Below are positions 5,889 through 27,902 of a stretch of DNA of 34,863 nt, piece after piece; position 1 is the stretch's first letter, and every line of letters starts with the position of its first letter. The stretch comes from Xenophilus azovorans DSM 13620 (GTDB lineage Bacteria; Pseudomonadota; Gammaproteobacteria; Burkholderiales; Burkholderiaceae_C), in assembly GCF_000745855.1 (NCBI RefSeq), contig NZ_JQKD01000048.1, forward strand, positions 1 to 34,863, written 5' to 3'. The position numbers and the translations under genes are program-made. The notes under the pieces were generated by a model. It worked only from the letters and a program-made list of their open reading frames with translations. It made no database searches and was not told where the DNA came from.

Positions 5889-5908
5889 TGATTTCGACGC
5901 TGAAATCA
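5889..5908. promoter_or_regulatory. Inverted repeat, candidate MocR operator
   Basis: TGATTTC and GAAATCA form a perfect 7-bp inverted repeat with a 6-base spacer. It lies in the 65-base gap between the MocR start (5855) and the dioxygenase start (5921), just ahead of the dioxygenase ribosome binding site GAGGA. Its position suits a shared operator for autoregulation and control of the dioxygenase operon. Confidence 0.5.
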
Positions 5909-5920
5909 AAGAGGAAAGCG

Positions 5921-12421: not shown

Positions 12422-12436
12422 CGCGGGCCTCCGAAT

Positions 12437-12489
12437 GAGTTGAATCCGGTGCATTTTGCTATTGCAAAGTCATCAGTTCCATTCAACTC
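12437..12489. promoter_or_regulatory. Nested inverted repeats, candidate LysR (PnbR-like) operator
   Basis: GAGTTGAAT (12437-12445) and ATTCAACTC (12481-12489) form a perfect 9-bp inverted repeat separated by 35 bases. Between them TTTGC-TATT-GCAAA (12455-12468) is a smaller perfect dyad that contains a T-N11-A LysR box. The arrangement lies in the divergent gap between the LysR start (12421) and the Bug start (12536). Confidence 0.5.
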
Positions 12490-12535
12490 GTGCGTACTCC
12501 ATCATGGCGTCCGTTCCACATCCATCGAGGCCCCC

Positions 12536-13522
12536 ATGACTCCTCTTTCCCGCCGTTCGCTGGTGCGCTTCCTTGCCGCATCGCCCATCGTCGCCCGGCT
12601 GGGACCGGCCGTGGCACAGGCCGGTGCAGCCACGGGCAGGATCCTCGTGGGCTATCCCGCGGGCGGCACGCTCGACACGACCGCACGGCAGCTCGCCGAA
12701 GCCTGGCGCAAGCAGGGGCGGCCCTACATCGTCGACAACCGGGCCGGTGCGGCCGGGCGTGTCGCGAACAGCCAGCTCAAGCGCGAGCGGCCGGACGGCA
12801 GCGCGCTGCTGTGCACGCATGCCTCGGCGCTGACGATCTATCCGCACGTCTACAGCCGGCTGATGTACGACCCCGCGACCGATCTGGTGCCCGTCTCGCC
12901 GCTGGTGGCGGCCACCTGCGCGTTCGCGGTCAGCAGCGCCGCGCCGGCATCCGTGCGGACGCTGCAGGACTACGTGGCATGGATCCGGCGGGCGCCGGAG
13001 CAAGGCACCTATGCGTCGCCCGCGGCGGGGTCGATGGCCCACTTCCTGGGCTATCAGCTCTCGGAGGCGGCCGGCCTGAAGCTGCAGCACGTCGGCTACC
13101 GCGGCTCGGCGCCGGCCATGCAGGACCTCATCGGCGGACAGATTCCCGCCTACTTCGGGTTCGTGGCCGACTTCCTGCCGTACATGCAGCAGGGCCGGAT
13201 CAGGATCCTCGGCGTCGCCGGCGAGCGCCGCTCCGCCTTCATGAAGGATGTCCCCACCTTCATCGAGCAGGGATTCGCGGGTATCCGCGGAGGCGAGACC
13301 TACGGCATCTTCGCCCCGCCCGCGACGCCCGAGGCCATCGTCAGGGGCCTGTACGAGTCGATGGTCGAGGCCAGCAAGGACGCCGCGCTGCGCGCATCCT
13401 TCGCCCAGGTGGGCCTGGAGCCCATGACACTGCCGCCGCAGGAATACGCCGGTTCGATCCGCAAGGAGCGCGACGCCTGGGGGCCGGTCGTGCGCGCATC
13501 CGGCTTCCGTTCCGAGGAGTAA
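12536..13522 (+). CDS. Bug/TctC-family periplasmic solute receptor 4 (pnb-linked)
   Basis: A 328-aa receptor. The N-terminus PLSRRSLVRFLAASP is a Tat-like signal, followed by GRILVGYPAGGTLDTTARQL and the loop YIVDNRAGAAGRVAN. The ATG at 12536 has CGAGG five bases upstream; the open frame runs far upstream on the antisense of the LysR gene and is not meaningful there. The gene is followed after five bases by the lyase-like gene, so it is the first gene of the probable operon. A substrate such as 4-nitrobenzoate is inferred from context only. No TctAB genes accompany it. Confidence 0.9.
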   Translation: MTPLSRRSLVRFLAASPIVARLGPAVAQAGAATGRILVGYPAGGTLDTTARQLAEAWRKQGRPYIVDNRAGAAGRVANSQLKRERPDGSALLCTHASALTIYPHVYSRLMYDPATDLVPVSPLVAATCAFAVSSAAPASVRTLQDYVAWIRRAPEQGTYASPAAGSMAHFLGYQLSEAAGLKLQHVGYRGSAPAMQDLIGGQIPAYFGFVADFLPYMQQGRIRILGVAGERRSAFMKDVPTFIEQGFAGIRGGETYGIFAPPATPEAIVRGLYESMVEASKDAALRASFAQVGLEPMTLPPQEYAGSIRKERDAWGPVVRASGFRSEE

Positions 13523-13527
13523 CCACG

Positions 13528-14100
13528 ATGAACACCGAACCCATCAACCAGGATCGAGAAGCGCTGATCGAGCGCAGCATTGCCTTCCTCGACGAAGTGA
13601 AGGACATGACCGCCGGCACCGACACGGAGCGCTGGCTGAACCGGAAGTACGGCCCCGATTCCGGGCTGTACCGGGCGCTCGCGCGCCTGGTGACCCAGGG
13701 CGTGCAGGACGGCTGGGCCGCGAACGTCGAACTGGACGGGCCGGTCTATCGCCGCAGCCGCATCGCGGATCCGTCGGAGCGCACGCATCACTTCAGCATC
13801 ACGGCGGTCTACATGGACAGCACGGGCAACCGCCAGGGCCACCCGGATGGACGCTATCGCGGCCAGTACCACGCGCACCCGTACGGCGAGTTCAACATGG
13901 TGGTGCCCCTGGGCCCCGATGCGGCGCTCAACGGGCCCAACGGGTGGTGCCACGCCGGGTGGACGGCGCCGGCGCCCGGAAGCCACCACTATCCCGAGGC
14001 GAGGGGCGGCGCGGTGATCGCGCTGTTCTTCCTCCCGGCCGGCCGCATCGCCTACCACCCGGCGCCGCAGGAAGAGGTTGCGGAACATGGCGCCGCGTGA
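13528..14100 (+). CDS. pnbB: 4-hydroxylaminobenzoate lyase-like protein (PnbB, DUF4863 family)
   Basis: A 190-aa protein. Residues 95-180 carry a compact beta-rich, cupin-like domain: GRYRGQYHAHPYGEFNMVVP, then GPNGWCHAGWTAPAPGSHHY, then a GGAVIALFFLPAGRIAY end. This is the architecture I associate with the DUF4863/PnbB family, which converts 4-hydroxylaminobenzoate to protocatechuate and ammonia. The histidines in YHAHPYGE are likely catalytic or metal-binding. GAGGAG precedes the ATG by eight bases. The stop overlaps the start of the nitroreductase gene by 14 bases, so the two are coupled, matching the known two-step pathway. Family assignment is from memory of the motif, not a search. Confidence 0.72.
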   Translation: MNTEPINQDREALIERSIAFLDEVKDMTAGTDTERWLNRKYGPDSGLYRALARLVTQGVQDGWAANVELDGPVYRRSRIADPSERTHHFSITAVYMDSTGNRQGHPDGRYRGQYHAHPYGEFNMVVPLGPDAALNGPNGWCHAGWTAPAPGSHHYPEARGGAVIALFFLPAGRIAYHPAPQEEVAEHGAA

Positions 14101-14806
14101 ACTGCCGCCGGGTCGCCGGGAAGACGTCGACCATGTCCTGAAAGCCCGCAGGTCGGTGCGGGCCTATACCGGCCGGCCGCTCTCGCGGGCGCAGGTGCTC
14201 GACGTCCTGCGGGCGGCGGCTGCGGCGCCGAGCAATTCCAACACGCAACCCTGGCGCGTCCACGTGCTGACCGGCACGCCGATGAAGACGCTGGGCGGCC
14301 TGCTGGTGGAGGCGTTCCGCAAGGCGGAGCTGCCGCCGTCCAGGCACTTTCCCGATCCCCTGCCGGAAGCGCTGGGCCGCCGCCAGGCGGAGTTCGCGCA
14401 GCGCTACTACGGCGCGCTGGGCATCGGCCGGGAAGACGCCGGGGCGCGTGCGCGCCAGACGCAGCGCAACTTCGATTTCTTCGGCGCGCCGGTCGGCCTG
14501 ATCTTCTCCATCGACGCGCGCCTGGGCCGCCATAGCTGGCTCGATCTGGGCCTGTTCGTGCAGAGCGTGATGATCGCGGCCAAGGCGCGCGGCATCGACA
14601 CCTGCCCGCAGGTGTCCTTCGCGCGCTTCCATCCGGTCATCGCGCCGTTCCTGGGCATGGCGCCGGAGGAGGTGACGGCCTGCGGCATGGCCATGGGCTT
14701 CGGCGATGCGCATGCGCCGGTGAACCGCATGGACATGCCCCGGCAGCCGGTGGAGGCGTTCACCCGCCTGGTCGGCTTCGACGAGGCGGGTCGCGTCGAA
14801 GCCTGA
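14087..14806 (+). CDS. pnbA: FMN-dependent nitroreductase, probable 4-nitrobenzoate reductase (PnbA-like)
   Basis: A 239-aa nitroreductase-family protein. It has the FMN-contacting KARRSVRAYTGRPLS near residue 18, and APSNSNTQPWRVHVLTG near 47, the typical SNxNTQPW motif. The C-terminal half ends in GMAMGFGDAHAPVNR. Enzymes of this family reduce nitro groups to hydroxylamines with NAD(P)H. Its 14-base overlap with the lyase-like gene makes 4-nitrobenzoate to 4-hydroxylaminobenzoate the most likely reaction. The ATG at 14087 is preferred over an in-frame TTG at 14078. It could also be a nitroreductase for another nitroaromatic acid. Confidence 0.75.
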   Translation: MAPRELPPGRREDVDHVLKARRSVRAYTGRPLSRAQVLDVLRAAAAAPSNSNTQPWRVHVLTGTPMKTLGGLLVEAFRKAELPPSRHFPDPLPEALGRRQAEFAQRYYGALGIGREDAGARARQTQRNFDFFGAPVGLIFSIDARLGRHSWLDLGLFVQSVMIAAKARGIDTCPQVSFARFHPVIAPFLGMAPEEVTACGMAMGFGDAHAPVNRMDMPRQPVEAFTRLVGFDEAGRVEA

Positions 14807-15303: not shown

Positions 15304-17091
15304 CTAGAGCGGCTGGCGGCGGTTCGAGGCGGCCGCCGTGCGTCCGGCTGCTTCATAGACCACCTTGCCGCCGACGATGGTCTGCAGCGCCACGATGTCC
15401 TTGATCTGCTCGTCGGGCACGGTGAGGTAGTCGGCCGAGAGCACGACCATGTCGGCGAGCCGGCCGACGGCGATGGCGCCCTTCCTGTCCTCCTCGAAGG
15501 TCAGGTAGGGGCCGGCGTTGGTGTACAGCCGCAGGGCTTCCTCCCTGGACACCTTCTGGTCGGCGCCGTAGACGACACCGCGCGGGTCCTTGCGCGTCAC
15601 CATGAGGTACATGCCGACGAAGGGGTTGAGCAGGTTGACCTCGTTGTCCGTCCCGGCGGACGTGCGCTCCATGCCCAGCACGTCGAGCAGCCGCCGCGTG
15701 GGGACGGCCCGGTTGGCGAGCAGCCGCCCCATGTAGCGTTCCACCGTCCCCGCCTTGTCCCACATGAAGGCGTTCTGGGCGTCGACGCGCACGTCCAGCG
15801 CCTTGGCCTGGTCGATCTGGTCGGGCGCGATCAGGCTGCCGTGCACCACGCTGAAGCGGCGTCCCCGGATGGATCGGTCCGCGTCGGCGGCGGCATAGGC
15901 CTTCAGCGTCAGGTCGACGGCGGCGTCGCCGACCGCGTGGGTGTGGACGCGCCAGCCGTACTGGTTGGCCAGCCGCACGACGCGCTGGTAGGTCGCCGGA
16001 TCGACGGCCACCATGCCGTGGTTCTGGGGCTCGTTGGCGTAGCTGCTGCGGATGTAGGCGGACTTGAGCGTCATGCCGCCGTCCGAGACCAGCTTGATGC
16101 CGGCCAGCCGGGCCCAGTCGTTGCCTTCTCCGTCCTTGAACCGGGCGGCCTTGAGCCTGGCTTCGAATTCCTGGGCACTCCCGACAGGGAAACGCCAGAA
16201 GAGACCGGATCGAACCGTGGATTGCCCGCGCTCGGCGACCGTGAAGTAGGCCTTGATCTGGTCTTCGTTCAGTCCGGCGACCACGGTGCTCGTGATGCCC
16301 GAGCGGTTGTAGACGCGCTGCCCGGCGATGTTCTGGGCCACGCGCTGCTCGAAGGTCGGCGCGGGGATCTTGTCGGTGACCAGATCGATCGCCGTTTCCT
16401 CCAGCACGCCCGTGGCGTCTCCATTGGCATCCCGCCAGATCTTCCCGCCGACGGGGTCCTTGGTCGTCTTGGTGATCCCGGCAAGCTGCAACGCCTTGCT
16501 GTTGGCCATGGCGAAGTGGCCGACGGTCTGCACGTAGACGGGGTGGTCGGGCGCCACCGCGTCGAGCTCCTGGCGCGTCAGGTAGCGCTGCTCCTTCAGT
16601 TGCGAAGGCGGGTGCCAGCGGCTCGTCTGCACCCATTGGCCGGGCGGAACGTTCTTCGCGCGGATGAAGTCGCCGATGATCGACTGCGCCTCGGCCACCG
16701 TTCTCGCCTTGATCACCTGCGCCGTGGTTTCCACCGTGCCGGCGCCGTCCATGTGGGTGTGGGCGTCCATCAGGCCCGGTACCACGGTCCGGCCCTGCAG
16801 GTCCACGACCTTCGTGCGCGGGGTGGCGAGCTGGCGGATCGCATCGCTGCTGCCGACGGCGACGAACTCGCCGTTCCTGACGGCCACGGCCTGCGCGACG
16901 GAGAAGTCCTTGTCGGCCGTGATGATCTTGCCGTTGACGTACGCGACGTCCGGGTCGGACGCCGCGTTGTGCGCGCACCCGGCAAGGATCATCCCTGCGG
17001 TGGCGGCAAGCGCCGCAGCCAGGGTGCGGGAAGGAAGACGGCGTCCTGCGCGTGGTGACCGGTGGGTCAGGCGATGGGTGGATTGAGACAT
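15304..17091 (-). CDS. Lipoprotein amidohydrolase (amidohydrolase_3, YtcJ-like)
   Basis: A 595-aa protein. The signal ends in a lipobox (LAGC, Cys about residue 35), so it should be a lipoprotein at the periplasmic face of a membrane. The catalytic domain of the YtcJ/amidohydrolase_3 type includes PGLMDAHTHMDG (HxH metal ligands), TVGHFAMANSKAL, KLVSDGGMTLKSAYI, THAVGDAAVD and AGTDNEVN. These enzymes hydrolyse amide or other C-N bonds with bound zinc. AGGAG lies about nine bases before the ATG at 17091. It is the last gene of the long minus-strand cluster, 92 bases after the amidotransferase gene. It may hydrolyse an N-acyl or amide substrate outside the cytoplasm before uptake. Confidence 0.82.
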   Translation of the reverse strand: MSQSTHRLTHRSPRAGRRLPSRTLAAALAATAGMILAGCAHNAASDPDVAYVNGKIITADKDFSVAQAVAVRNGEFVAVGSSDAIRQLATPRTKVVDLQGRTVVPGLMDAHTHMDGAGTVETTAQVIKARTVAEAQSIIGDFIRAKNVPPGQWVQTSRWHPPSQLKEQRYLTRQELDAVAPDHPVYVQTVGHFAMANSKALQLAGITKTTKDPVGGKIWRDANGDATGVLEETAIDLVTDKIPAPTFEQRVAQNIAGQRVYNRSGITSTVVAGLNEDQIKAYFTVAERGQSTVRSGLFWRFPVGSAQEFEARLKAARFKDGEGNDWARLAGIKLVSDGGMTLKSAYIRSSYANEPQNHGMVAVDPATYQRVVRLANQYGWRVHTHAVGDAAVDLTLKAYAAADADRSIRGRRFSVVHGSLIAPDQIDQAKALDVRVDAQNAFMWDKAGTVERYMGRLLANRAVPTRRLLDVLGMERTSAGTDNEVNLLNPFVGMYLMVTRKDPRGVVYGADQKVSREEALRLYTNAGPYLTFEEDRKGAIAVGRLADMVVLSADYLTVPDEQIKDIVALQTIVGGKVVYEAAGRTAAASNRRQPL

Positions 17092-17183
17092 GGCCGATTG
17101 GCTCCTTTGTGTGGTGGTTGTCCTGCCCTGAGGCGGCCCGCCCGGGCCGATGCTTGGTTGTGATCCGTTCTTCGCTGCCGGCG

Positions 17184-17903
17184 CTACGCGCAGCCCTGCA
17201 CCCAGCGGGCATAGAGCCGCGCCAGCACCGACCGCATCCGCGACGTGCGTGCCTCCAGGTCGTTCAGCAGATCGCCGGGATCGCTGACGGCCGGGTTGCC
17301 CTGGGCGTGCTGGCGCACGAGCTGGTGGCCGTTGCGCGCCATCGAGACCTCGACCAGGGCCGGCGTCATCTCCAGATGGGACTGCAGCAGCAGGTGGCGG
17401 TCGTGCAGCACGCAGGCCTGGCTCTCGCAATGCCGGCTTCGCGCGATGCGCACCGCTTCGGCCGGGGGCTGGAAGGCATCGGCGTGCCACTGGAAGGTCT
17501 GTACCTCGGTGGCCGCGAATTCGCCCCACCAGTCCCGCGCCACGGGGTGGTCTTCCGTCTGCAGCGGCTGCCAGCCGATCTCGGGAACGGGGTGGCGCGC
17601 GACGCTGCCGCCCAGGGCCTGCGCGAGCAGCTGGCTGCCGAGGCAGTGGCCCGCCAGCGGCAGGCCGCGGGCCGCGGCATCGCGGATCAGCGCCAGCTCC
17701 TGCGCGATCCAGGGGAGGTCGTCATGGACGCCCATGTAGCCGCCCATGAACACCAGGCCGGAGAACGCCGACGCGTCCTCGGGCACGGGCTCTCCGTCGA
17801 CGATCCGGATGCACCGGACCTCGCGGCCCAGCGCCTGCAGGATGGGGACCACGCTGCCGGGCGCCCCGACCTCCGTGTGCTGGAAGACTGCAATCGGCTT
17901 CAT
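17184..17903 (-). CDS. Class I glutamine amidotransferase-like protein (TdnT-like candidate)
   Basis: A 239-aa protein with a class I GATase fold: nucleophile elbow AGHCLGSQLLAQALGG (Cys87) and the QSHLEMTP motif (His176, Glu178). It also has a family-specific WHADAF at 139-144. GATase-like proteins hydrolyse gamma-glutamyl amides. In the aniline cluster, TdnT is a GATase-like protein acting next to the glutamine-synthetase-like TdnQ. Here it follows the LivF gene by seven bases (ATG 17903, with AGGAAG upstream) and lies in the same cluster as a GS-like gene. A gamma-glutamyl hydrolase role is inferred. It could instead be a generic YfeJ-type amidotransferase. Confidence 0.82.
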   Translation of the reverse strand: MKPIAVFQHTEVGAPGSVVPILQALGREVRCIRIVDGEPVPEDASAFSGLVFMGGYMGVHDDLPWIAQELALIRDAAARGLPLAGHCLGSQLLAQALGGSVARHPVPEIGWQPLQTEDHPVARDWWGEFAATEVQTFQWHADAFQPPAEAVRIARSRHCESQACVLHDRHLLLQSHLEMTPALVEVSMARNGHQLVRQHAQGNPAVSDPGDLLNDLEARTSRMRSVLARLYARWVQGCA

Positions 17904-17910
17904 GGCTTCC

Positions 17911-18613
<703 letters not shown>

Positions 18614-18621
<8 letters not shown>

Positions 18622-19387
18622 GCGCCGCTCCCGCGTGTGTCGCCACGTGGCTGCTGCCGAGATAGACCTCGCGCACGCGCGGGTCGCTGCCGATCTCGGC
18701 CGGCGTGCCTTCCGTCAGGATGCGGCCGGACACCAGCACCGAGATGCGGCGCGAGAAGCGGAAGACCAGGTTCATGTCGTGCTCGATGAAAAGAACGCTG
18801 ATGTCGGCGGGCAGCTCGGCGATGACCTCGAAGAGCTCGCCGCTCTCGTCCTCGGGCACGCCGGCGGCGGGTTCGTCCAGCAGCAGGATGCGGGGCCGCG
18901 CGGCCAGCGCGAGCGCGATCTCCAGCAACCGCTGCTTGCCGTAGGCCAGCTCGGCCACCGGCACGTGGGCCACCGCGTCCAGGCGCAGCCGCGCCAGCAG
19001 CGCGTGCGCCTCGTCGAACAGGCCCGTGCAGCGCCTGAGCGGCCGCCACCAGGTGGCGCCCAGGCCCTCGCGTTCGCCGATGGCCAGCACCACCGACAGC
19101 AGCGGCGTCAGGCTGGGAAAGAGCGTGTTGATCTGGAAGGTGCGCACCAGGCCCATGCGCGCGCGCTGGTCGCAGCTCAGCGCCGTGATGTCCTGGTCGC
19201 CCATGCGCACCATGCCGCTGCTGGGGCGGTACACGCCCGTGAGCAGGTTGATCAGGGTGGTCTTGCCCGCGCCGTTCGGCCCGATCAGCGCCTGGCGTGC
19301 ACCGGGTTCGAGCGTGAGATCCACGTCGGCCACCGCGTCGAAGGCGCCGAAGCGGATGCCCAGCCCCCGGGTCTGCAGCGCGCTCAT
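18614..19387 (-). CDS. ABC transporter ATP-binding protein, LivG type
   Basis: A 257-aa ATPase with Walker A GPNGAGKTT, signature LAYGKQRLLEIALAL, Walker B ILLLDEPAAGV, and the LivG-characteristic C-terminal segment EHDMNLVFRFSRRISVL. The start ATG at 19387 has AGGAG about eight bases upstream and overlaps the LivM stop by four bases. It pairs with the LivF-type ATPase. A much longer open frame upstream on the same strand is antisense noise over the permease gene and is not part of this protein. Confidence 0.9.
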
Positions 19388-20352
19388 CGGCCGGACTCCT
19401 GCACGCGCACGCGCCGCGACAGCACGCCCATGATGCCGCCGCGGCCCAGCATCACCGCGGCGATCAGGAAGATGCCCAGCCAGAACATCCAGTACTGCGG
19501 GTTCATGTCGGCGAACCAGTCGTGCACCAGCATGTAGACGATGGCGCCGACCATGCCGCCGTACAGGCGGCCCGTGCCGCCGAGCACCAGGATGATCAGC
19601 ACTTCGGCCGAGCGGTTGAAGCCGATCGACTCGATGCCGACGAACTGCGTGGTCTGGGCCAGCAGCGCGCCGGCCACGCCGGCCACCGCGGCCGAGAAGG
19701 CATAGGCCATGCGCAGGCGCGCGTCCACCGGCGAACCGACGGCCAGCATGCGCTTGCGGCTGTCGTGGATGCCGCGCAGCGCCAGGCCGAAGGGCGAGCG
19801 CAGCACCAGCCGCACCAGCAGGAACATCGCCAGCACCACCACGAACGCGTAGCCGAAGGCGGTCCTGCCGAACAGGTCGAACTCGAACAGGCCCAGCACC
19901 GGCCACACCTGCATGCCTTGCAGGCCGTCGGTGCCGCCGGTGATGCCCGACAGGCGGTTGACCAGCTCGGCCAGCAGCACGCACACGCCGATGGTGATCA
20001 TCAGCCGGGCCAGGTCGCTGCCGCGCACCACCAGGTAGCTCAGCGCGTAGCCCAGCGCGGCGCACAGCAGCAGGGCGGCCAGCAGGCCGCTGAAGGGCTC
20101 GCCCCAGCCGTGCCGGGCCAGCAGGCCGGCGGTGTAAGCGCCGGCGCCGAAGAAGGCGGCGTGGCCTACGGTCAGGATGCCCGCGTAGCCCAGCGCCATG
20201 TCCAGCGAGACGGCGAACAGCCCGAAGATCAGCACCTGGCTCATCAGCGTGAGATGGTCGGGCAGCAGGAAGAAGCTGCCGGCCAGCGCGGCCCAGAACA
20301 GGACTTCGGCAACGCGCAGCCGTTGCGGCGAGAGCAGCAGGGTCTTGGTCAT
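19384..20352 (-). CDS. ABC transporter permease, LivM type
   Basis: A 322-aa polytopic membrane protein. Multiple hydrophobic segments begin with VLFWAALAGSFFLLP and the Liv-family stretch LDMALGYAGILTVGHAAFFG. The cytoplasmic coupling loop is IHDSRKRMLAVG. ATG at 20352 is the usual position for this family; the frame extends further upstream without a sensible start. It overlaps the LivH-type stop by four bases, as in other tightly packed Liv operons. It forms half of the membrane pore. Confidence 0.9.
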   Translation of the reverse strand: MTKTLLLSPQRLRVAEVLFWAALAGSFFLLPDHLTLMSQVLIFGLFAVSLDMALGYAGILTVGHAAFFGAGAYTAGLLARHGWGEPFSGLLAALLLCAALGYALSYLVVRGSDLARLMITIGVCVLLAELVNRLSGITGGTDGLQGMQVWPVLGLFEFDLFGRTAFGYAFVVVLAMFLLVRLVLRSPFGLALRGIHDSRKRMLAVGSPVDARLRMAYAFSAAVAGVAGALLAQTTQFVGIESIGFNRSAEVLIILVLGGTGRLYGGMVGAIVYMLVHDWFADMNPQYWMFWLGIFLIAAVMLGRGGIMGVLSRRVRVQESGR

Positions 20353-21209
20353 GAGAGTCCCTTCCGGGGCACGATGCCGTGGGGCCGCAGCAGCAGCATG
20401 GCGATCATGAAGACGTAGATGAGGAAGGCGCCGGCCTCGGGCAGGTAGTATTTGCCGGCCACGTCGACGATGCCCACCAGCAGCGCCGCGACGAACGGGC
20501 CGGTGATGGTGCCGGCGCCGCCGACGCACACCACGATCAGGAAGTACACCAGGTACTTCAGCGGAAAGCTCGGCTCCAGGCCCAGCATGCCCAGGCTCAG
20601 CGCGCCGCCCAGCCCCGCCAGGCCGCAGCCCAGCGTGAAGGTCAGGAAGAACAGGCGCTGCACGTGGATGCCCGTGCCGCCGGCCACGCGCTGGTTGTCG
20701 ACGGCGGCGCGCACCATCGCGCCGTAGCGGGTCTTGCCCAGCGCGAGCAGCAGGGCGGCGAGCACCAGCGCGCCGGCCACGATCATGAACAGGCGGTAGC
20801 GGCCGACCTGCAGCCCGGCCAGCGAGACCTGGCCCTGCAGCACCGCGGGCAGGGTGAAGGGCTGCATGCCCGGCCCGAAGGCCCAGGTGAAGGCCGCGAT
20901 GGAGACGAACACGATGCCGATGGACAGCAGCACCTGGTCCAGCGGGTGCGCGCGGTACAGCCGCCGGTAGAACAGGAACTCCAGCACCGCGCCGACCAGC
21001 GCCGCCGCCACGAAGGCCGCTGCCAGCGCGGGGAAGAAGCCCAGGCCGGCGCGGCTCATGAGCACGCTGGCGGCGTACCCGCCGACCATCGCGAACGTGC
21101 CGTGCGCGAGGTTGACGAAGTTCATGAGGCCCATCGTGATGGACAGGCCGACGCCGATGAGGAACAGGAGCATGCCGTAGGCCACTCCGTCGAAGATCAC
21201 GATACCCAT
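20349..21209 (-). CDS. ABC transporter permease, LivH type
   Basis: A 286-aa polytopic membrane protein with the LivH opening GVAYGMLLFLIGVGLSITMG and the conserved MNFVNLAHGTFAMVGGYAA. The coupling loop is VRAAVDNQRVAGGTGI, and VCVGGAGTITGPFVAALLVG follows near the end. It pairs with the LivM-type permease. The gap to the upstream binding-protein gene (84 bases) holds two hairpins. Confidence 0.9.
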   Translation of the reverse strand: MGIVIFDGVAYGMLLFLIGVGLSITMGLMNFVNLAHGTFAMVGGYAASVLMSRAGLGFFPALAAAFVAAALVGAVLEFLFYRRLYRAHPLDQVLLSIGIVFVSIAAFTWAFGPGMQPFTLPAVLQGQVSLAGLQVGRYRLFMIVAGALVLAALLLALGKTRYGAMVRAAVDNQRVAGGTGIHVQRLFFLTFTLGCGLAGLGGALSLGMLGLEPSFPLKYLVYFLIVVCVGGAGTITGPFVAALLVGIVDVAGKYYLPEAGAFLIYVFMIAMLLLRPHGIVPRKGLS

Positions 21210-21231
21210 GGGATTCCCGATGCGAAGCGCA

Positions 21232-21282
21232 CGGCGTTCAGGGCGAACGCCGCGTGCCGAAACCCGCGCCCCGGCGGGCGCG
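21232..21282. repeat. Two GC-rich hairpins between binding-protein and permease genes
   Basis: CGGCGTTC / GAACGCCG (21232-21252, 5-base loop) and CGCGCCC / GGGCGCG (21265-21282, 4-base loop) are perfect inverted repeats in the 84-base gap between the LivK-type and LivH-type genes. No T-tract follows on the minus strand, so they are unlikely to be simple terminators. They probably protect the upstream mRNA and lower permease expression relative to the binding protein, as is common in ABC import operons. Confidence 0.6.
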
Positions 21283-21293
21283 AAAGGGGTGGC

Positions 21294-22487
21294 TTACCTG
21301 GCTTCCTTGGCCGGGTCCTTGACGCGGCCGAACTTGTCGAACTCCACGTTGACGAGCTGGCCGTCCCGGTTCTTCTCGACCTTGCGGATGTAGACCGTCT
21401 GCACGATGTCGCGCGTGGCGGCATCGATCTCGATCGGGCCGCGCGGGCTCTCGAACGCCATGCCCTTGAGCGCCGCCATGAGCTTGTCGCCGCTCGCGTC
21501 GCCCTGGGTCCTGGCCAGCGCCTGGTCGATCGCCGCCATGGCGTCGTAGGCGGTCACCGCGAAGTAGTTCGGGCGGATGGACTTGCCGTACTGCGCCTCG
21601 AAGTCCTTCACGAACTTCTGGTTCTTGGCGCTGGGATGCGCGTAGGAATAGTGGTGGCTGGTGACCAGGCCGAGCGCGACGTCGCCGGTCGCTTCGAGGA
21701 AGCTGTCGTCCGTGGCCTCGCCGGTGGCGAACAGCTTGATCCCGGCCTCTTCCATGCCGCGCTCCTTCCAGACCTTGAGGAAGGCCGGGGGCATCACGCC
21801 GGAGGGGAAGAAGAAGAACACCGCCTGCGGCTTGCTGTCCTTGATGCGCTGGACGTAGGCGGAGAAGTCGGGGTTGTTCATCGGCGTGCGCACCTCGCCG
21901 ACCACCTTGCCGCCGCCTTCTGTGAAGGCCTTCTTGAAGGCCGATTCCGCGTCCTGGCCCGAGGCGTAGTCGGCCACGACGGTGTAGGCCTCCTTGATGC
22001 CCTGCCTGAGCATCCATCGCGCCATCGGGTCGGTCACCTGCTGCACCGTGAAGGACAGGCGCGCGATGTAGGGCGAGCTGGTGGTGATTGCCGAGGAGGC
22101 CGCGTTCATCACGATCGTGGGCACCTTGGCCTGCGTGGCGACGGCGCCGACGGCATAGGCGTTCGGGCTGAAGTCCAGGCCGGTCAGGATCTGCACCTTG
22201 TCGCGCACGATCAGCTCCTGCGCCATGCGCTTGGATGCGTCGGGCGCGGGGCCGCCGGTGTCCTTCTTCACGATCTCCACGCTGCGGCCGGCGATCTTGC
22301 CGCCGTGCTCCTTGAGGTACAGCGCCACGCCCGCGTCGAACTGGCGGCCATAGTCGGCGTAGGGGCCGGAGTAGGTGGCGATCAGGCCGATCTTCAGCGC
22401 GTCCTGGGCCTGCGCGGCCGTGGCGATGCAGGCCAGCGCGGCGGCGGCTGCAGAGGCCAGGAGGGTGCGTTTGGTCATCTTCATCAT
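21294..22487 (-). CDS. ABC transporter substrate-binding protein, LivK/LivJ type
   Basis: A 397-aa periplasmic binding protein (Peripla_BP_6). A Sec signal (about residues 1-27, ASAAAAALACIATAAQA) is followed by DALKIGLIATYSGPYADYG, then IVMNAASSAIT and the hinge segment VVADYASGQDAE. The start ATG at 22487 has CGGAG about five bases upstream. It begins 19 bases after the ferredoxin-reductase gene stop, so the importer is in one operon with the oxygenase system. It captures the catabolic substrate in the periplasm. Confidence 0.9.
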   Translation of the reverse strand: MMKMTKRTLLASAAAAALACIATAAQAQDALKIGLIATYSGPYADYGRQFDAGVALYLKEHGGKIAGRSVEIVKKDTGGPAPDASKRMAQELIVRDKVQILTGLDFSPNAYAVGAVATQAKVPTIVMNAASSAITTSSPYIARLSFTVQQVTDPMARWMLRQGIKEAYTVVADYASGQDAESAFKKAFTEGGGKVVGEVRTPMNNPDFSAYVQRIKDSKPQAVFFFFPSGVMPPAFLKVWKERGMEEAGIKLFATGEATDDSFLEATGDVALGLVTSHHYSYAHPSAKNQKFVKDFEAQYGKSIRPNYFAVTAYDAMAAIDQALARTQGDASGDKLMAALKGMAFESPRGPIEIDAATRDIVQTVYIRKVEKNRDGQLVNVEFDKFGRVKDPAKEAR

Positions 22488-22506
22488 GGTGCTCCGTGGG
22501 GAAGGG

Positions 22507-23760
22507 TCAGCCCGCAGGCCGGGGGATGGAATACGGCTTGAGGTCGGCGGCCGGATCGGCCAGCGCCTCGGAGGGGATGTGTGCGCGCTGCGCGATCAAT
22601 TTGCGTGCCAGCATGTGCTCGGCCGGCCGGTTGACCGAGTGCGCGGCGGCCACGGCGCCGTCGCGCAGGTAGAACAGCGTGAAGCGGTCCGAGTCCATGT
22701 CGCCGCGCAGCACGACGGCATCGTCCGCCGCGGGCAGGCCGGCCATCTGGAACTTCAGGTCGTGCTGCTCGCTCCAGAACCATGGCACGGCGCCGAGCGG
22801 CTGCGGCCTGCCGACCAGCACCGAGGCCGCCGCGCGCGCGCCGTCGTTGGCGGCCTGGATGGATTCGAGCCGCATGCGCGCGGGGCCGCCCGGAAAGGGC
22901 GGCTGCGCCATGTTGGCGACGTCGCCGGCGGCCAGCACGTTCGGCGCGCCGGTGCGGCCCAGCGCATCGACCAGGATGCCGCCGGCGCATTCGATGCCAG
23001 CCTCCTGGGCCAGCTCCACGTTCGGCAGCACGCCGATGCCGAGCACGACCAGGTCGCAGTCGAGCCGGCGGCCATCGTCCAGCAGCACCGCCTCGACCCG
23101 GCCCTGGCTGCCCTGCAGCGCCCGGACGCCGCGGTCCAGCTCCAGCGCGACGCCGCGCCGGCGGTGCGCCGCGGCCACGTAGTCGGACATGGACGCCGGG
23201 AAGCTGCGCGCGAGCAGGCGCGCCTGGCTCTCGATCACCGTGACCTGGGCGCCGGCGGTGGTCAGCGCGGCGGCGACCTCCAGGCCGATGAAGCCGCCGC
23301 CGATCACGCAGGCGCGCGTGCAGCGACCCAGCGCCTGCTGCACGGCCAGCGCGTCGTCCAGCGTGCGCAACTGGTGCACGCCCTGCAGGTCGGTGCCGGG
23401 CACCGGCAGGGGGCGGCAGCGTGCGCCCGTCGCCAGCGCGAGCCAGCCGTAGCCGAGGTGGCTGCCGTCGGCCAGCCGCACGCGCTGCGCCGCCAGGTCG
23501 AGCGCCATGGCGCGCACGCCCAGGCGCAGGTCGATGCCCTGCCCGGCATAGAAGTCCGGGCCGCGCAGCGCGAGCTGGTCCACGCCGGTCTTGCCGGCGA
23601 GCAGGCCCTTGGACAGCGGCGGGCGCTGGTAGGGCGCGTGCGGCTCGTCGCCGAGCAGCACGATGGGTGCGTCGAAGCCCAGCTCGCGTGCGGCGGCCGC
23701 GAGCTGCACGCCGGCGTAGGAAGCGCCGACGATGACCAGGGGCGCGGACGAGGATGCCAT
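22507..23760 (-). CDS. FAD-dependent ferredoxin reductase
   Basis: A 417-aa flavoprotein of the putidaredoxin/rhodocoxin reductase type: N-terminal FAD dinucleotide fold (VIVGASYAGVQLA), NAD-binding fold (ACVIGGGFIGLEVAAAL), NVLAAGDVANM near 290, and a C-terminal domain with WFWSEQHDLKFQMAG. It transfers electrons from NAD(P)H to a [2Fe-2S] ferredoxin. Its start ATG shares one base with the ferredoxin stop (TGATG on the minus strand), so the two are coupled. It is the electron donor for the Rieske oxygenase encoded two genes upstream. Confidence 0.9.
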   Translation of the reverse strand: MASSSAPLVIVGASYAGVQLAAAARELGFDAPIVLLGDEPHAPYQRPPLSKGLLAGKTGVDQLALRGPDFYAGQGIDLRLGVRAMALDLAAQRVRLADGSHLGYGWLALATGARCRPLPVPGTDLQGVHQLRTLDDALAVQQALGRCTRACVIGGGFIGLEVAAALTTAGAQVTVIESQARLLARSFPASMSDYVAAAHRRRGVALELDRGVRALQGSQGRVEAVLLDDGRRLDCDLVVLGIGVLPNVELAQEAGIECAGGILVDALGRTGAPNVLAAGDVANMAQPPFPGGPARMRLESIQAANDGARAAASVLVGRPQPLGAVPWFWSEQHDLKFQMAGLPAADDAVVLRGDMDSDRFTLFYLRDGAVAAAHSVNRPAEHMLARKLIAQRAHIPSEALADPAADLKPYSIPRPAG

Positions 23761-24083
23761 CAGACCTGGGTCTCGGGCACGCGCACGGTCAGCCCGTCGA
23801 GCTCGGGCGTGACGGTGAGCTGGCAGCTCAGCCGGCTGCCGGGCAGGCGCTCGGAGGCCACGCCGTCCAGCAGTTCGTCCTCCATGTCGTCGGGCGGCGG
23901 CAGGCGGTCGATGAAGTCGTCCGCGACGTAGACGTGGCAGGTCGCGCAGGAGCAGCTGCCCCCGCACTCGGCGTCGATGCCGCGCACGTTGTGGTGGATG
24001 GCGGTCTCCATCACGCTGGCGCCTGTCCTGGCGTCGATGCTGCGCGCGCTGCCATCCTTGAGGATGTAGGTGATCGTGGGCAT
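23760..24083 (-). CDS. [2Fe-2S] ferredoxin, adrenodoxin/putidaredoxin type
   Basis: A 107-aa ferredoxin with the cluster cysteines in CX5CX2C (C40, C46, C49 in ECGGSCSCATCHVYV) and C87 (RLSCQLTV), as in class I electron-transfer ferredoxins that serve P450 and Rieske oxygenases. The N-terminus MPTITYILKDGSARSID is typical. It lies between the GS-like gene (8 bases upstream) and the reductase. It relays electrons to the Rieske oxygenase. Confidence 0.92.
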   Translation of the reverse strand: MPTITYILKDGSARSIDARTGASVMETAIHHNVRGIDAECGGSCSCATCHVYVADDFIDRLPPPDDMEDELLDGVASERLPGSRLSCQLTVTPELDGLTVRVPETQV

Positions 24084-24091
24084 GCGGTCGT

Positions 24092-25531
24092 TCAGAACAT
24101 GTCGAAGTACTCGCGGTGTTCCCACTCGCTGACTTCGAGGTTGAAGCGCGCGATCTCGGCTTCCTTGATGTGGCAGTAGTAGTCGACGAAGCGCTGGCCG
24201 AGTTGCTCGCACAGCAGGCTGTCGGCGCGCAGGGCGGCCAGTGCATCGGAGAGCGAGCGCGGCAGTTGTTCCGCCGCGGTCTCGTAGGGCACGTCGGCCG
24301 AAGGGCCGGGATCGAGCCGGCGGCGCATGCCGTCCAGGCCCGAGAAGATCTGCGAGGCCAGGTACAGGTAGGGGTTGGCCGTGGGCTCGCCCACGCGGTT
24401 CTCGATGCGCGTCGCGTTCTGGCCGACGCCGCCCAGCACGCGCAGCATGGCGCCGCGGTTGTCGCGCGCCCAGATGGCGCGGTCCGGCGCCAGCGAGAAG
24501 GGGCGGTAGCGCCGGTAGCCGTTGATCGTCGGGCTGGCCAGCGCCGCGGCGCCGCGGGCGTGGGCCTGCAGGCCGGCCAGGTAGTGCAGGCCGGTCTCGC
24601 TCAGCGCATCGCCCTCGCGCGCCGGGATGAAGGCGTTGCGGCCGTCCGCCTTGCGCCGCAGCGACTGGTGCAGGTGCCAGCCGCTGGACATCACGCTGGG
24701 GATCTTCGGCCGGCACATGAAGGTGGCGTGGTAGCCGTGGCGCTGGCAGATCTGCTTGACGGCGCTGCGCAGCAGCACCATGGTGTCGGCCGGCACGAGT
24801 CCGGACGTGGGGCCGAAGACCAGCTCGAACTGGCTGGGGCCGAACTCGATCTCCAGCGACAGCAGGGGCAGCTCGAGCGCGGCCAGATGCGAGCGCAGCA
24901 GCTCCATCAGCGGTTCGACGCGGTCGTAGCGCAGCTCGGTCAGGTACTGGTGGCCCTGGGTGAGCAGCGACACGCGCGGCGGCTCGCCGGGCTGCCCGGC
25001 GTCCGACAGCGCCAGGCTGGGGTCGTCCAGCCGGAACACATGGAACTCGACCTCCAGGCCGGCCACGAACTCCAGCCCCAGCGCGTCGATTTCGCCCACG
25101 GCACGCTGCATGATCTGCCGCGTCCCGAACGGGCAGGGGCTGCCGTCCGCCAGGTAGGCGTCGCACAGGATCCAGCCGGTGCGGGGCGTCCAGGGCAGCA
25201 CGCGGAAGGTCGCCGGGTCGGCCACGATGGTGAAGTCCGCGCCGCCCTGCATGCCGGGGCTGTCGAAGCCGCCGCCGGCCGAGAACACGGGGAACACGGA
25301 GCGGTGCGAGGTGTCCTTGGCCAGCAGGGTGGAGGTGAGGTTGACGCCGTCGCGCAGCGCGGCGCGCGCGGCCGAGGCCACCAGGGTCTTGCCGCGCAGC
25401 ACGCCGTGCTGGTCGGGCCAGGCGAAGCGGACCACGTCCACCTCGCCGGCCTGGAGCCGTTCGGCGACGGCGTCGGCCTGCCGGTGCTGTTCGTCCGACC
25501 AGAGGCCGAAGCGTTCGACGAAGCTTTGCAT
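24092..25531 (-). CDS. Glutamine synthetase-like ligase (gamma-glutamylamide synthetase candidate)
   Basis: A 479-aa protein of the glutamine synthetase superfamily. It has GLEVEFHVF and EIEFGPSQFELVF (metal/ammonia-site glutamates), SGWHLHQSLRR (ATP-site histidine), and the C-terminal ATRIENRVGEPTANPYLYLA. It resembles the GlnA-like enzymes that ligate glutamate to amines (TdnQ gamma-glutamylanilide synthase, PuuA, IpuC) rather than housekeeping GlnA. The start ATG at 25531 lies 11 bases after the Rieske gene stop. In the aniline pathway this reaction precedes ring oxidation, and the flanking Rieske oxygenase and GATase-like genes match that logic. The amine substrate is not known. Confidence 0.87.
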   Translation of the reverse strand: MQSFVERFGLWSDEQHRQADAVAERLQAGEVDVVRFAWPDQHGVLRGKTLVASAARAALRDGVNLTSTLLAKDTSHRSVFPVFSAGGGFDSPGMQGGADFTIVADPATFRVLPWTPRTGWILCDAYLADGSPCPFGTRQIMQRAVGEIDALGLEFVAGLEVEFHVFRLDDPSLALSDAGQPGEPPRVSLLTQGHQYLTELRYDRVEPLMELLRSHLAALELPLLSLEIEFGPSQFELVFGPTSGLVPADTMVLLRSAVKQICQRHGYHATFMCRPKIPSVMSSGWHLHQSLRRKADGRNAFIPAREGDALSETGLHYLAGLQAHARGAAALASPTINGYRRYRPFSLAPDRAIWARDNRGAMLRVLGGVGQNATRIENRVGEPTANPYLYLASQIFSGLDGMRRRLDPGPSADVPYETAAEQLPRSLSDALAALRADSLLCEQLGQRFVDYYCHIKEAEIARFNLEVSEWEHREYFDMF

Positions 25532-25542
25532 GATGGGCGGGC

Positions 25543-26865
25543 TCAGGCGGCCAGGCGTGCCGAGGCCCAGTCGGAGGCGCGCCGGCGGGCCAGGTCCGCC
25601 TCGCGGCAGTAGTCGTCGGCCTGGGCGGTGGCGGCTACGCCGTCGATGGACGCAGGCCCCGTGAGGGCGCCGGCCTGCGAGGCGTCGATGACCATGGGCG
25701 CCGTGTCGCCGGCCAGGGTGCTGTCGATGGCCTCCTGCAGCATGCGCCGGTAGGCGACGATGCCCTTGTCGGTGGTGCCCAGGTGCTCGCGCGTGCGGTC
25801 CTGGATCGGGCCCATCGACTCGCAGGCCCACTGGTCGTGCACGTTGATGTCCATGCCCATGCCGGTGTAGGTCTGGGCCATCTGCTCCTCGACGCTGTAG
25901 CCGTACTGGTTGCGCTTGTTCTTGCGCGAGGTGTAGTCGGGCAGCTCGATCGTGGCCAGGCGCTGCTCGCGCATCTGCTGCTTGTCCACCGGGCCGGTGA
26001 AGCTGGTGAAGATGGCGTACCAGTAGCAGTGCGTGTCGTCCACCGGCACGTGCCACTGCGAGATCGTCATCTCCGAGCTCATCGGGATGACGAAGGCCTG
26101 CGGGAAGACGAGGTTGGTCACGCGCACGTGCGTCTGTTCCTCCGAGAGCTTGCGCAGCGTGGTCAACTGCATGCCGTAGGGCGCGGGCGCGACGCGGATC
26201 TCGGGGCAGTCGTACTCGCGCAGCACCTGCGTGATCGCCATCTTCGAGTCGGCCGAGGCGCCGCGGAACTGCTTGCCGTAGCTCTCGGAGGTGTCCTCGT
26301 CCTCGAAGAAGCGGTGCAGGAAGGAGGCGTGCGCCGGGTCGATGCCCACTTCGAGCGCCTGCAGCCAGTTGCACTCCCACAGGCCCTTGAAGGCGAAGGT
26401 GTGGCTGTCGGGCGCGACGAAGCAGTCGAATTCCGGGAAGGCCGGCGGCTCGCCCTCGCCGACGTAGGCGAAGACGACGCCGCTCTTCTCGACGACCGGG
26501 TACGCGCCCTGCCGGATGCGCGTGCACAGCTTGCTGCCGGCCGGCTCGGCAGGTGTTTCCAGGCACTGGCCGGTGGCGTCGAACAGCCAGCCGTGGAAGG
26601 CGCAGCGCAGGCCGCCGCTTTCCAGCCGGCCATAGGCCAGGTCGGCGCCGCGGTGGGGGCAGTCGCGGTCCAGCAGGCCGAAGCGGCCGGCCTCGTCGCG
26701 GAACAGCACGAAGTCCTGGCCCATCAGCTTGACGGGCTTGAGCGGGCGCGGTCCCTGGAGTTCTTCGGCCAGCGCCACCGGCTGCCAATAGCGCCGCAGC
26801 AGCCTGCCGGCGGGGGTTCCGGGTCCGACCCGGGTCATCTGGTCGTTCTTCTCGGCACTGATCAT
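25543..26865 (-). CDS. Rieske non-heme iron oxygenase, phthalate 4,5-dioxygenase-type large subunit
   Basis: A 440-aa oxygenase. The Rieske motif is CPHRG at 69-73 (C69, H71) and CAFHG at 88-92 (C88, H91). The mononuclear iron site is in GIDPAHASFLH (H179, H184). The N-terminal ISAEKNDQMTRVGPGTPAG and ECNWLQALE stretch place it in the phthalate-dioxygenase-type (alpha-only) branch, which includes O- and N-demethylases. No small subunit is encoded. The ATG at 26865 has AGGAG about nine bases upstream; a TTG at 26883 in frame is less likely. As first gene of the operon it probably oxidises the glutamylated amine. Confidence 0.88.
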   Translation of the reverse strand: MISAEKNDQMTRVGPGTPAGRLLRRYWQPVALAEELQGPRPLKPVKLMGQDFVLFRDEAGRFGLLDRDCPHRGADLAYGRLESGGLRCAFHGWLFDATGQCLETPAEPAGSKLCTRIRQGAYPVVEKSGVVFAYVGEGEPPAFPEFDCFVAPDSHTFAFKGLWECNWLQALEVGIDPAHASFLHRFFEDEDTSESYGKQFRGASADSKMAITQVLREYDCPEIRVAPAPYGMQLTTLRKLSEEQTHVRVTNLVFPQAFVIPMSSEMTISQWHVPVDDTHCYWYAIFTSFTGPVDKQQMREQRLATIELPDYTSRKNKRNQYGYSVEEQMAQTYTGMGMDINVHDQWACESMGPIQDRTREHLGTTDKGIVAYRRMLQEAIDSTLAGDTAPMVIDASQAGALTGPASIDGVAATAQADDYCREADLARRRASDWASARLAA

Positions 26866-26906
26866 GGTGGGGTGCTCCTGCAAGGCAAATCAAGAAATGC
26901 ATGCTG

Positions 26907-26916
26907 TTGCATGCAA
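26907..26916. promoter_or_regulatory. Palindrome TTGCATGCAA, candidate GntR operator (oxygenase side)
   Basis: A perfect 10-bp palindrome 42 bases upstream of the Rieske start, overlapping a possible -35 box, with another TGCATGC seven bases closer to the gene (26898-26904). The same core occurs before the GntR gene. Repression by promoter occlusion is a reasonable inference. Confidence 0.6.
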
Positions 26917-27147
26917 TGGGATTCATTGTTGAATCCATGATGATTCAGGTCAATGGCCTGGCACTCAATATGCGTTTGGAATAAGGGTAAACACCTGATT
27001 CAGGGTGCTGAAATCGGGTGATTCGAAGCACCGATGCGGTGCGAACGGGGCGGATTGGGTCATGCTGAAGGCCGCTGCATGCATGATCCGGGCCAAATGG
27101 AGCTATTCGCATGCAGTTCGGCGCCGGGGATAGAATGGCTCGGTCTT

Positions 27148-27161
27148 GATTGCATGCAATC
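27148..27161. promoter_or_regulatory. Palindrome GATTGCATGCAATC, candidate GntR autoregulatory operator
   Basis: A perfect 14-bp palindrome ending six bases before the chosen GntR start codon (27168). It includes the same TTGCATGCAA core as the site on the oxygenase side. GntR proteins usually bind such short dyads and often repress their own gene. Confidence 0.65.
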
Positions 27162-27167
27162 GAACTC

Positions 27168-27902
27168 ATGGACTCTCAACAATCACGGGTGCTGGTGCAA
27201 CTGCGGGACCTGATCCTCAAGGGCGAATTCGCCCCTGGGGAGCGGCTGGCGGAGATCCCTCTCGCAGAAACCCTCGGCGCCTCGCGCACGCCCGTGCGGC
27301 TGGCGCTGGCCAGCCTGGAGCACGAGGGGCTGATCGAGCCCTCGCCGGCCGGCGGCTACCAGATGCGGCGCTTCACCTCCCGCGAAATCGCCGACGCGAT
27401 CCGGGTCCGGGGGGTCGTCGAGGGTTTCGCGGCCCGGCTGCTGGCGGAAGAGGGCGCGCCGCGCCAGTTGCTGCGGGAACTGCACGAGTGCCTGGAGGCC
27501 GGCGACAAGGCGGTCTACAAGCCGCAGATGGAACTGGACGACTACGCCGCCTACGTGGAGATGAACGACACCTTCCACCGGCTCATCCTCGAGGGCTGCG
27601 GCAATTCATCGCTGCAGCGCATGATGGATCTCCTGATCGGCCAGCCCTTCGCGTCGCCGAGCGCCATGCTGCCCATGCAGTCGTCGATGCAGGAAGGCCA
27701 GCAGTGGATGCAGCAGGCCCACCGGCAGCATCACGCCATCGTGCAGGCGATCGAGCGGGGCCAGGGCTCGCGCGCCCAGGCCCTGGGCGAGGAGCACGTG
27801 GAGATCGCGCGCATGAACCTGGAATACGCGCTCGAGCAGCCCGAGCTGGCCGCCAAGCTCATGCCGGGCATGCGGCTGGTGGCCTCGCGGGGCCGGGGTT
27901 AG
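27168..27902 (+). CDS. GntR-family (FCD) transcriptional regulator
   Basis: A 244-aa regulator with an N-terminal GntR winged helix at about residues 8-70 (LRDLILKGEFAPGERLAEIP, then GASRTPVRLALASLEHEGL) and a C-terminal all-helical FCD effector domain (metal-binding D and H residues in MNDTFHRLIL and AHRQHHAIV). I used the ATG at 27168; an in-frame TTG at 27150 lies inside the operator palindrome and is less likely. It is divergent from the Rieske/GS/ABC operon and is its probable regulator, responding to the amine substrate or a derivative. Confidence 0.9.
   Translation: MDSQQSRVLVQLRDLILKGEFAPGERLAEIPLAETLGASRTPVRLALASLEHEGLIEPSPAGGYQMRRFTSREIADAIRVRGVVEGFAARLLAEEGAPRQLLRELHECLEAGDKAVYKPQMELDDYAAYVEMNDTFHRLILEGCGNSSLQRMMDLLIGQPFASPSAMLPMQSSMQEGQQWMQQAHRQHHAIVQAIERGQGSRAQALGEEHVEIARMNLEYALEQPELAAKLMPGMRLVASRGRG

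Follow-up and report, generated by a model that had tools for sequence, protein, structure and literature searches.

A sad-type gamma-glutamylation and Rieske oxygenase operon of Xenophilus azovorans, predicted to act on an acidic arylamine, possibly 4-aminobenzoate

The stretch analysed, here called the window, is one whole contig (NZ_JQKD01000048.1, C44; 34,863 nucleotides) of the 6.5 Mb genome of Xenophilus azovorans DSM 13620, the assembly of which is 99.6% complete. It carries a minus-strand gene set that starts beside a divergent GntR gene and codes, in this order, for a Rieske oxygenase, a glutamine-synthetase-like (GS-like) ligase, a ferredoxin, a ferredoxin reductase, a Liv-type solute-binding protein (SBP), LivH, LivM, LivG, LivF, a class I GATase-like protein and an amidohydrolase (Table 1). 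This content and order, given already in the initial annotation, agree with the coordinates, Pfam and homology. Spacings between genes are from -8 to +19 bases, with the exception of SBP-LivH (84) and GATase-amidohydrolase (92). Ten of the operon and regulator proteins were tested in Pfam and all were supported; LivM and LivG were assigned by homology and position. By sequence, the Rieske-GS-ferredoxin core is of the kind found in the sad operon, which represents a described but little-studied family. The unit seems to be larger than 15304..27902, and a pnbR-Bug-pnbB-pnbA module at 11435-14806, about 0.5 kb off, seems to belong with it. The operon is interpreted as a catabolic one whose substrate is an acidic arylamine, 4-aminobenzoate being the likeliest candidate, with a probability of about 0.56.

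Table 1. Features of the operon, the adjacent pnb module and the intergenic motifs in the window
Feature	Position	Strand	Basis or remark
LysR regulator, PnbR type	11435..12454	-	homologues of 48-72% accompany window-type pnbB in the 13 sad loci fetched that have it
Bug-type (TTT) solute-binding protein	12536..13522	+	named by eye from sequence; between pnbR and pnbB
PnbB-like 4-hydroxylaminobenzoate lyase (PF16155)	13528..14100	+	Pfam E 3.3e-62
PnbA-like nitroreductase	14078..14806	+	Pfam Nitroreductase E 1.4e-26
Lipoprotein amidohydrolase (Amidohydro_3), accessory	15304..17091	-	Pfam; lipobox read by eye
Class I GATase-like protein, candidate gamma-glutamyl-arylamide hydrolase	17184..17903	-	Pfam GATase
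LivF ATPase	17911..18621	-	Pfam ABC_tran
LivG ATPase	18614..19387	-	homology; annotated in JS666 relative
LivM permease	19384..20352	-	homology; annotated permease in JS666 relative
LivH permease	20349..21209	-	Pfam BPD_transp_2
Liv-type periplasmic binding protein (SBP)	21294..22487	-	PDB matches 4ey3/4eyg/4eyk
FAD ferredoxin reductase	22507..23760	-	Pfam Pyr_redox_2 and Reductase_C; 43% to SA1
[2Fe-2S] ferredoxin, sad type	23760..24083	-	Pfam Fer2; 46% to SA1
SadB-like gamma-glutamyl arylamine ligase (GS-like), predicted	24092..25531	-	best PDB match NpaA1
SadA-like Rieske oxygenase alpha subunit (LigXa_C / phthalate-dioxygenase branch)	25543..26865	-	Pfam Rieske and LigXa_C
Operator candidate TTGCATGCAA	26907..26916	.	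before Rieske gene
Partial operator TGCATGCA	27076..27083	.	motif in GntR-Rieske intergenic region
Operator candidate TTGCATGCAA	27150..27159	.	before gntR
GntR/FCD regulator, divergent	27168..27902	+	Pfam GntR, FCD

Named bacterial genomes were scanned with the GS-like protein, and the best 80 of 558 related stretches were taken as the sample of loci. Genes were counted there by tblastn with the window proteins at E 1e-20, with the number of matches of at least 50% identity in brackets; the counts are lower bounds, as some loci stop at a contig end. The GS-like gene is present in 80/80 (80) by construction of the sample, and the Rieske gene, adjacent to it in every locus, also in 80/80 (80). 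GntR was found in 75/80 (75), ferredoxin in 69/80 (69), SBP in 63/80 (57), LivH in 57/80 (54), LivM in 56/80 (53), LivG and LivF each in 56/80 (52), and ferredoxin reductase in 45/80 (39). Less frequent are GATase with 22/80 (19), nitroreductase with 10/80 (5), amidohydrolase with 9/80 (8), and pnbB with 9/80 (9) in a fetched flank of at most 10 kb. From these counts, the core consists of Rieske, GS and ferredoxin genes together with GntR; the Liv importer is usual, and GATase and amidohydrolase are optional. The same order is seen again in named genomes from several families, and the set is therefore more than a chance arrangement; the genera include Variovorax, Xenophilus, Pseudorhodoferax, Hylemonella, Azoarcus, Pusillimonas, Cupriavidus, Burkholderia and Paraburkholderia. 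The initial annotation had proposed a built-in importer and had named conservation beyond this strain as a check; the importer is usually kept (52-57 of 80 loci at the 50% level). Within a family sample of 200 genomes, 43 gave a GS match at a threshold of E 1e-100; besides the own genome these are 10 at 74-79% identity and 32 that reach only 45-52%. Amidases (PF01425) recur nearby as two clusters, in 11 and 7 of 85 loci. No gentisate dioxygenase match was found in the 80 loci, and FAA hydrolase gave only 28-31% matches, in three of them. No ring-cleavage gene was recognised among the 45 commonest neighbour clusters, which were read by eye, five being tested in Pfam.

The best match of the GS-like protein in PDB is NpaA1 (8wwu, E 1.3e-124, the next match having E 1.5e-53), a 1-naphthylamine glutamylase (PMC11335346). 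When aligned together, its identities are 62.1% to the M. nodulans protein, 60.3% to that of N. resinovorum SA1, 49.8% to the DcaQ-type protein of pTB30, 42.3% to NpaA1, 30.9% to GlnA of the own genome, and 26.9% to PuuA. GlnA is placed on a separate long branch in the tree. By these comparisons the GS-like protein goes with arylamine glutamylases and not with GlnA, as had been expected, and a housekeeping identity was rejected on its low identity to the own GlnA, the tree separation and the best PDB match. The protein agrees with GoaS (glutamyl-organic-amine synthetase) in being nearer to the NpaA1 type than to GlnA and in having the N-terminal 15th-motif loop, where the alignment is free of gaps and the residues differ. 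The sad rows do not form one clade in the GS tree; the DcaQ and NpaA1 rows fall close to SA1, on a long branch, a placement that is possibly false according to the program warning.

In the amine tunnel of NpaA1, F75 lies on a loop of the neighbouring subunit, and the F75A exchange almost abolishes aniline use (PMC11335346). At this position, Lys72 is present in 85/85 sequences (the window, 80 loci, JS666, RL4, SA1 and M. nodulans), followed four residues later by His in 84/85; the DcaQ-type protein has Phe there. Glu227 and Glu229, which correspond to Glu232 and Glu234 of the NpaA1 amine site, are each conserved in 85/85. Aniline-type GS genes (DcaQ-like, with Phe in the tunnel) occur in the same bacterial family and are partly plasmid-borne (L017, identical to plasmid hit H26; L019; L022; and L115, which is pTB30); both types of glutamyl ligase are thus in circulation within this family.

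The Rieske protein is 63% identical to the SA1 copy, and only 23-26% similar to DcaA1 and NpaA3, over less than half of its length. The CxH...CxxH cluster and the His-His-carboxylate iron site are present as motifs read by eye, with His179 and His184 invariant in 92/92 sequences. Also conserved in 92/92 is Arg248, the equivalent of R244 in PDO and R234 in IPDO, both of which bind the substrate carboxylate (PMC12445078). By this alignment, structure 9ina is probably IPDO. The second Arg of PDO, R207, is not kept and is replaced by Met, Leu, Ile or Val in a gappy part of the alignment. No second oxygenase subunit was found among the operon genes, and the oxygenase is coded by a single gene.

Gamma-glutamylation followed by a Rieske oxygenase from a branch other than that of tdn/atd/dca, as predicted in the initial annotation, is supported by these comparisons. 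The aniline (tdn/atd/dca) and 1-naphthylamine (npa) systems share with the window gamma-glutamylation before oxygenation and a GATase-like gene, the product of which has in the window the Cys-His-Glu residues aligned with those of DcaT, NpaA2 and PuuD. They differ in having a two-subunit alpha/beta oxygenase, a reductase of the ferredoxin-NADP-reductase type, a LysR regulator and Phe in the tunnel. A tdn-type aniline system was rejected for the window on the oxygenase type (single gene, low partial similarity) and on the tunnel Lys. PDO and IPDO of Comamonas KF1 are similar in sequence over most of the length and keep the carboxylate Arg; they differ at R207, and a GS partner is not described for them in the passages of the source (PMC12445078). 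The Mab (3-aminobenzoate) cluster of Comamonas QT12 was rejected as a counterpart, the main text of its paper being without a glutamine synthetase, ferredoxin or Rieske protein.

The closest described system is the sad operon. Its ferredoxin is taken by us to be sadD, and a reductase presumably belongs to it as well. Gan et al. 2012 (Microbiology) are said to have added this reductase, and the oxygenase activity in E. coli was reportedly lost without sadB. The operon of Hydrogenophaga PBC comprises the oxygenase gene sadA, the GS-like sadB and a ferredoxin gene, sadC in the figure legend, and codes for 4-aminobenzenesulfonate 3,4-dioxygenase, which converts 4-aminobenzenesulfonate (sulfanilate) to 4-sulfocatechol (PMC5632844). 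The initial impression that no described system has this set is therefore not borne out. In the same source, the operon is stated to be conserved across all Hydrogenophaga genomes studied; its original substrate was left open, and a natural close structural analogue of sulfanilate was thought likely (PMC5632844).

In the genus of genome G114, which appears to be Hydrogenophaga, a Rieske match was found in 46/60 genomes, and the best copy is 60-66% identical to that of the window in 45; G219 has an 80% copy and a 62% copy. The GS-like gene is adjacent in 30/30 fetched loci of this genus; its identity is 45-50% in 29 of them, the remaining one having 78%. Of 19 weaker GS loci taken from the family sample, 16 have the Rieske gene (15 also ferredoxin), and three are DcaQ-like. 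This second, Hydrogenophaga-type clade most likely includes the published sad operon, because the latter is stated as conserved in all Hydrogenophaga genomes of that study. If these genus copies are indeed the published sad genes, the window clade would be a sister and not an ortholog of Hydrogenophaga SadA and SadB. The tunnel Lys is present in 16/16 second-clade sequences, and the three DcaQ-like rows have Phe.

The window and the sad operon (Hydrogenophaga intermedia PBC; N. resinovorum SA1) have in common the Rieske, GS-like and ferredoxin genes, and a GntR partner of 53-57% identity accompanies the Hydrogenophaga-type regions (7/7 of the second-clade regions fetched, L182-L188). FAA hydrolase was found in 6/7 of these regions, a TRAP binding protein in 5/7, and gentisate 1,2-dioxygenase likewise in 5/7, truncated at the region's edge in one case. 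The window has a Liv ABC importer in place of the TRAP binding protein and, where such neighbours occur, its clade has pnb genes and the second clade gentisate genes, so importers and partners vary between the clades. The substrate in the window is probably a carboxylate, unlike that of the sad operon. A simple vicinal-diol product gives no explanation of the gentisate/FAA/TRAP neighbourhood. A third copy (Rieske 63%, GS 60%) is carried by the sulfanilate degrader N. resinovorum SA1 on its plasmid pSA3, 2 kb from a maleylacetate reductase gene. A glutaminase gene (PF04960; L113:22204-23115) near these pSA3 genes perhaps handles the glutamyl nitrogen. A CHMI-family tautomerase gene (PF02962) comes next after the GS-like gene in SA1 (L113:16569-16910) and recurs downstream in 10/80 loci (e.g., L063:17659-18024).

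The best PDB matches of the SBP are 4ey3/4eyg/4eyk (E 1.5e-113), followed by 4f06, 4evs and 4evq. All of them are taken by us to be binders of benzoate derivatives, 4ey3/4eyg/4eyk from R. palustris. These three Liv-type proteins are the nearest solved relatives of the window SBP. No Liv genes at 50% identity or more were found in 12 distinct Burkholderiaceae loci; their fetched flanks have a PcaK-like transporter in 10/12 and a PuuD-like hydrolase in 9/12.

PnbB of the window matches PF16155 with 209.4 bits against a cut-off of 26.9; no convincing solved relative was found for it. PF16155 splits into two subfamilies, and that of the window is 61-100% identical internally and 26-38% to the other PF16155 proteins compared. 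All pnbB genes that lie in fetched flanks of sad loci belong to the window subfamily, with a PnbR-like LysR alongside in all 13 such loci. The remaining pnb modules fetched showed no Bug gene beside pnbB. The own genome has another PF16155 gene (G000:C38:10852-11283, in L151), which is of the other subfamily and 34% identical to pnbB of the window. pnbR-pnbB is linked to sad-type genes in seven arrangements, including that of the alphaproteobacterium M. nodulans. In a collection of 72,556 plasmid records, nine had a listed GS match of at least 60.0% and ten a pnbB match of at least 59% (the next being 38%); six records are shared, with the genes at most 12 kb apart in each (hypergeometric 9e-23, which ignores shared descent).

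The operon is linked to homologues of the 4-nitrobenzoate genes pnbR, pnbB and pnbA, which stand for a reductive route via hydroxylamine and not an oxygenation. PnbB converts 4-hydroxylaminobenzoate to protocatechuate (PMC9590159). In P. terrae KU-15, a strain able to grow on 4-nitrobenzoate, pnbB, pnbR and pnbA carry the tags 35480, 35500 and 35570 (PMC9302171). This spacing is that of the ten-gene order PnbA-GntR-Rieske-GS-Fdx-FdR-PuuD-PnbR-PcaK-PnbB found in L105, L108, L141 and L143, where PnbR is third from PnbB. As far as locus tags go, the order in KU-15 favours the window-type subfamily for the characterised PnbB.

From the observed gene content, conservation, relationships, operator-like motif and linkage, we infer the following reactions, substrate and regulation. 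An aromatic acid would be taken up by the Liv importer. Using ATP, the SadB-like ligase would link the amino group of this acid with glutamate at the gamma-carboxyl, and the SadA-like Rieske oxygenase, fed by the ferredoxin and its reductase, would dihydroxylate the ring carbon that bears the nitrogen and the one next to it. The glutamyl-bound nitrogen would then leave and a catechol acid be produced, protocatechuate in the case of 4-aminobenzoate. Surplus gamma-glutamyl conjugate may be hydrolysed by the GATase-like protein, and GntR may act as a repressor at the TTGCATGCAA sites as long as no inducer is present. Through the pnbR-pnbB-pnbA module, 4-nitrobenzoate would arrive at protocatechuate too, via 4-hydroxylaminobenzoate. 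The class of mechanism is well supported by the sequence comparisons, and the substrate moderately. An acidic substrate, with 4-aminobenzoate as the best guess, is suggested by the tunnel Lys, the benzoate-type SBP match, the pnb linkage and the KU-15 layout; the position of the GS-like protein nearest to arylamine glutamylases, the sad core, Arg248 of the Rieske protein and the PcaK-like transporters were also counted for it. The own genome has two LigA genes of the protocatechuate 4,5-cleavage type.

Several observations weigh against 4-aminobenzoate. The tunnel Lys is shared with the second clade and therefore marks a larger group, which argues for an acid and not for 4-aminobenzoate specifically. 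pnbB and nitroreductase lie in the fetched flank of only 9 and 10 (5 at 50% or more) of the 80 loci, and most Variovorax-type loci are without them nearby. Window-type pnbB also occurs without a GS match, in 4/10 plasmid records and in the family genomes G139 and G116. The KU-15 argument is locus-tag arithmetic and not KU-15 sequence, and the PcaK-like transporter (one protein tested) scores below the curated cut-offs. Any PF16155 gene is present in 7/10 family genomes with a GS ortholog and in 37/189 without (Fisher test, p 0.0012). The genes of those seven genomes are not adjacent to the ortholog, and the three fetched belong to the other subfamily (33-34%); because of this the genome-level count says little, and the estimate for 4-aminobenzoate was lowered slightly.

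The same chemistry could serve another acidic arylamine, such as 3-aminobenzoate, an aminosalicylate, an aminophenyl-acid, or an aminoarene acid freed from an amide by the lipoprotein amidohydrolase. All evidence for an acid fits this equally well, the amidohydrolase (9/80) and PF01425 amidases recur nearby, and the sister clade beside gentisate dioxygenase suggests that substrates may vary between clades. As both the linkage with pnb genes and the layout in KU-15 speak for the para-benzoate series, this is judged the less likely choice, though the most serious of the alternatives. A true sulfanilate system with 4-sulfocatechol as product is considerably less probable. The Hydrogenophaga sad operon does perform this conversion (PMC5632844), and the SA1 plasmid copy lies near a maleylacetate reductase gene; against it, the pcaH2G2 pair for 4-sulfocatechol was not found in the own genome, which has a single PF00775 match, and the recognised catabolic neighbours are of nitrobenzoate and not sulfocatechol type.

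The physical linkage with pnbA and pnbB would also suit a clean-up of 4-aminobenzoate arising from over-reduction of nitrobenzoate, in place of growth on an imported amine. In most loci an importer is present and the fetched flank is free of pnb genes, which makes such a role rather improbable. The initial annotation had expected a substrate unlike aniline: another arylamine, an N-alkyl amine or an amide. The first is the one favoured here, in the form of an acidic arylamine. N-alkyl amines, amides and neutral anilines are the least probable substrates, disfavoured by Lys in place of Phe in the tunnel, the benzoate-type SBP, the PcaK-like transporters and the carboxylate Arg of the Rieske protein, even if the relatives NpaA1 and AtdA1 use neutral anilines (PMC11335346) and the DcaQ and NpaA1 rows nest near the sad rows.

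A wider proposal, which takes 4-aminobenzoate as the substrate, can be made tentatively, at slightly less than even odds. The window clade would be an aerobic pathway of the folate precursor 4-aminobenzoate, via gamma-glutamyl-4-aminobenzoate to protocatechuate. In several genera it would be fused with pnb genes, so that one locus funnels nitro- and aminobenzoate into the same ring cleavage, and sulfanilate degradation would be its xenobiotic offshoot. If true, this would identify genes by which many soil bacteria remove 4-aminobenzoate aerobically, a matter of relevance to vitamin cross-feeding, and would show a natural pathway turned to a dye pollutant. The question of the natural sad substrate, left open by the Hydrogenophaga authors, would narrow to a specific candidate, 4-aminobenzoate. 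The Lys/Phe difference provides a testable sequence rule for acid-using against neutral-arylamine glutamyl ligases. Among the papers listed in searches of an open-access library, no title or abstract beginning describes the window clade or a gene for aerobic 4-aminobenzoate oxygenation, a weak negative as most of the subscription literature lies outside such a library.

In the GntR-Rieske intergenic regions, TGCATGCA is present in 60/68, the window included. The ten-base palindrome TTGCATGCAA has 55 copies in these 20.9 kb (43/68 regions), against 1 in the remaining 1.35 Mb of the same loci. It is a conserved operator-like motif and a candidate site for GntR. The own genome has five TTGCATGCAA sites, two of them in the window. 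Two of the three others are 23 bases apart (G000:C6:84296-84328; L149:4297-4329), and the third is elsewhere; no new pathway gene was found through these sites in the own genome. The paired sites precede a DctA-like gene (by eye), followed by another GntR-like gene, and the operator core seems to be used by a related regulator as well.

The MFS gene at 27924-29162 (minus strand) is probably not part of the operon and was rejected, its tblastn query matching 0/80 loci. Elsewhere in the window, a MocR-like regulator (by eye) and a TauD/TfdA dioxygenase gene are divergently arranged, with a gene for a Bug binding protein next in line (4419-6934), and a gene for a DUF3604 protein adjoins another Bug binding protein gene (7942-9420).

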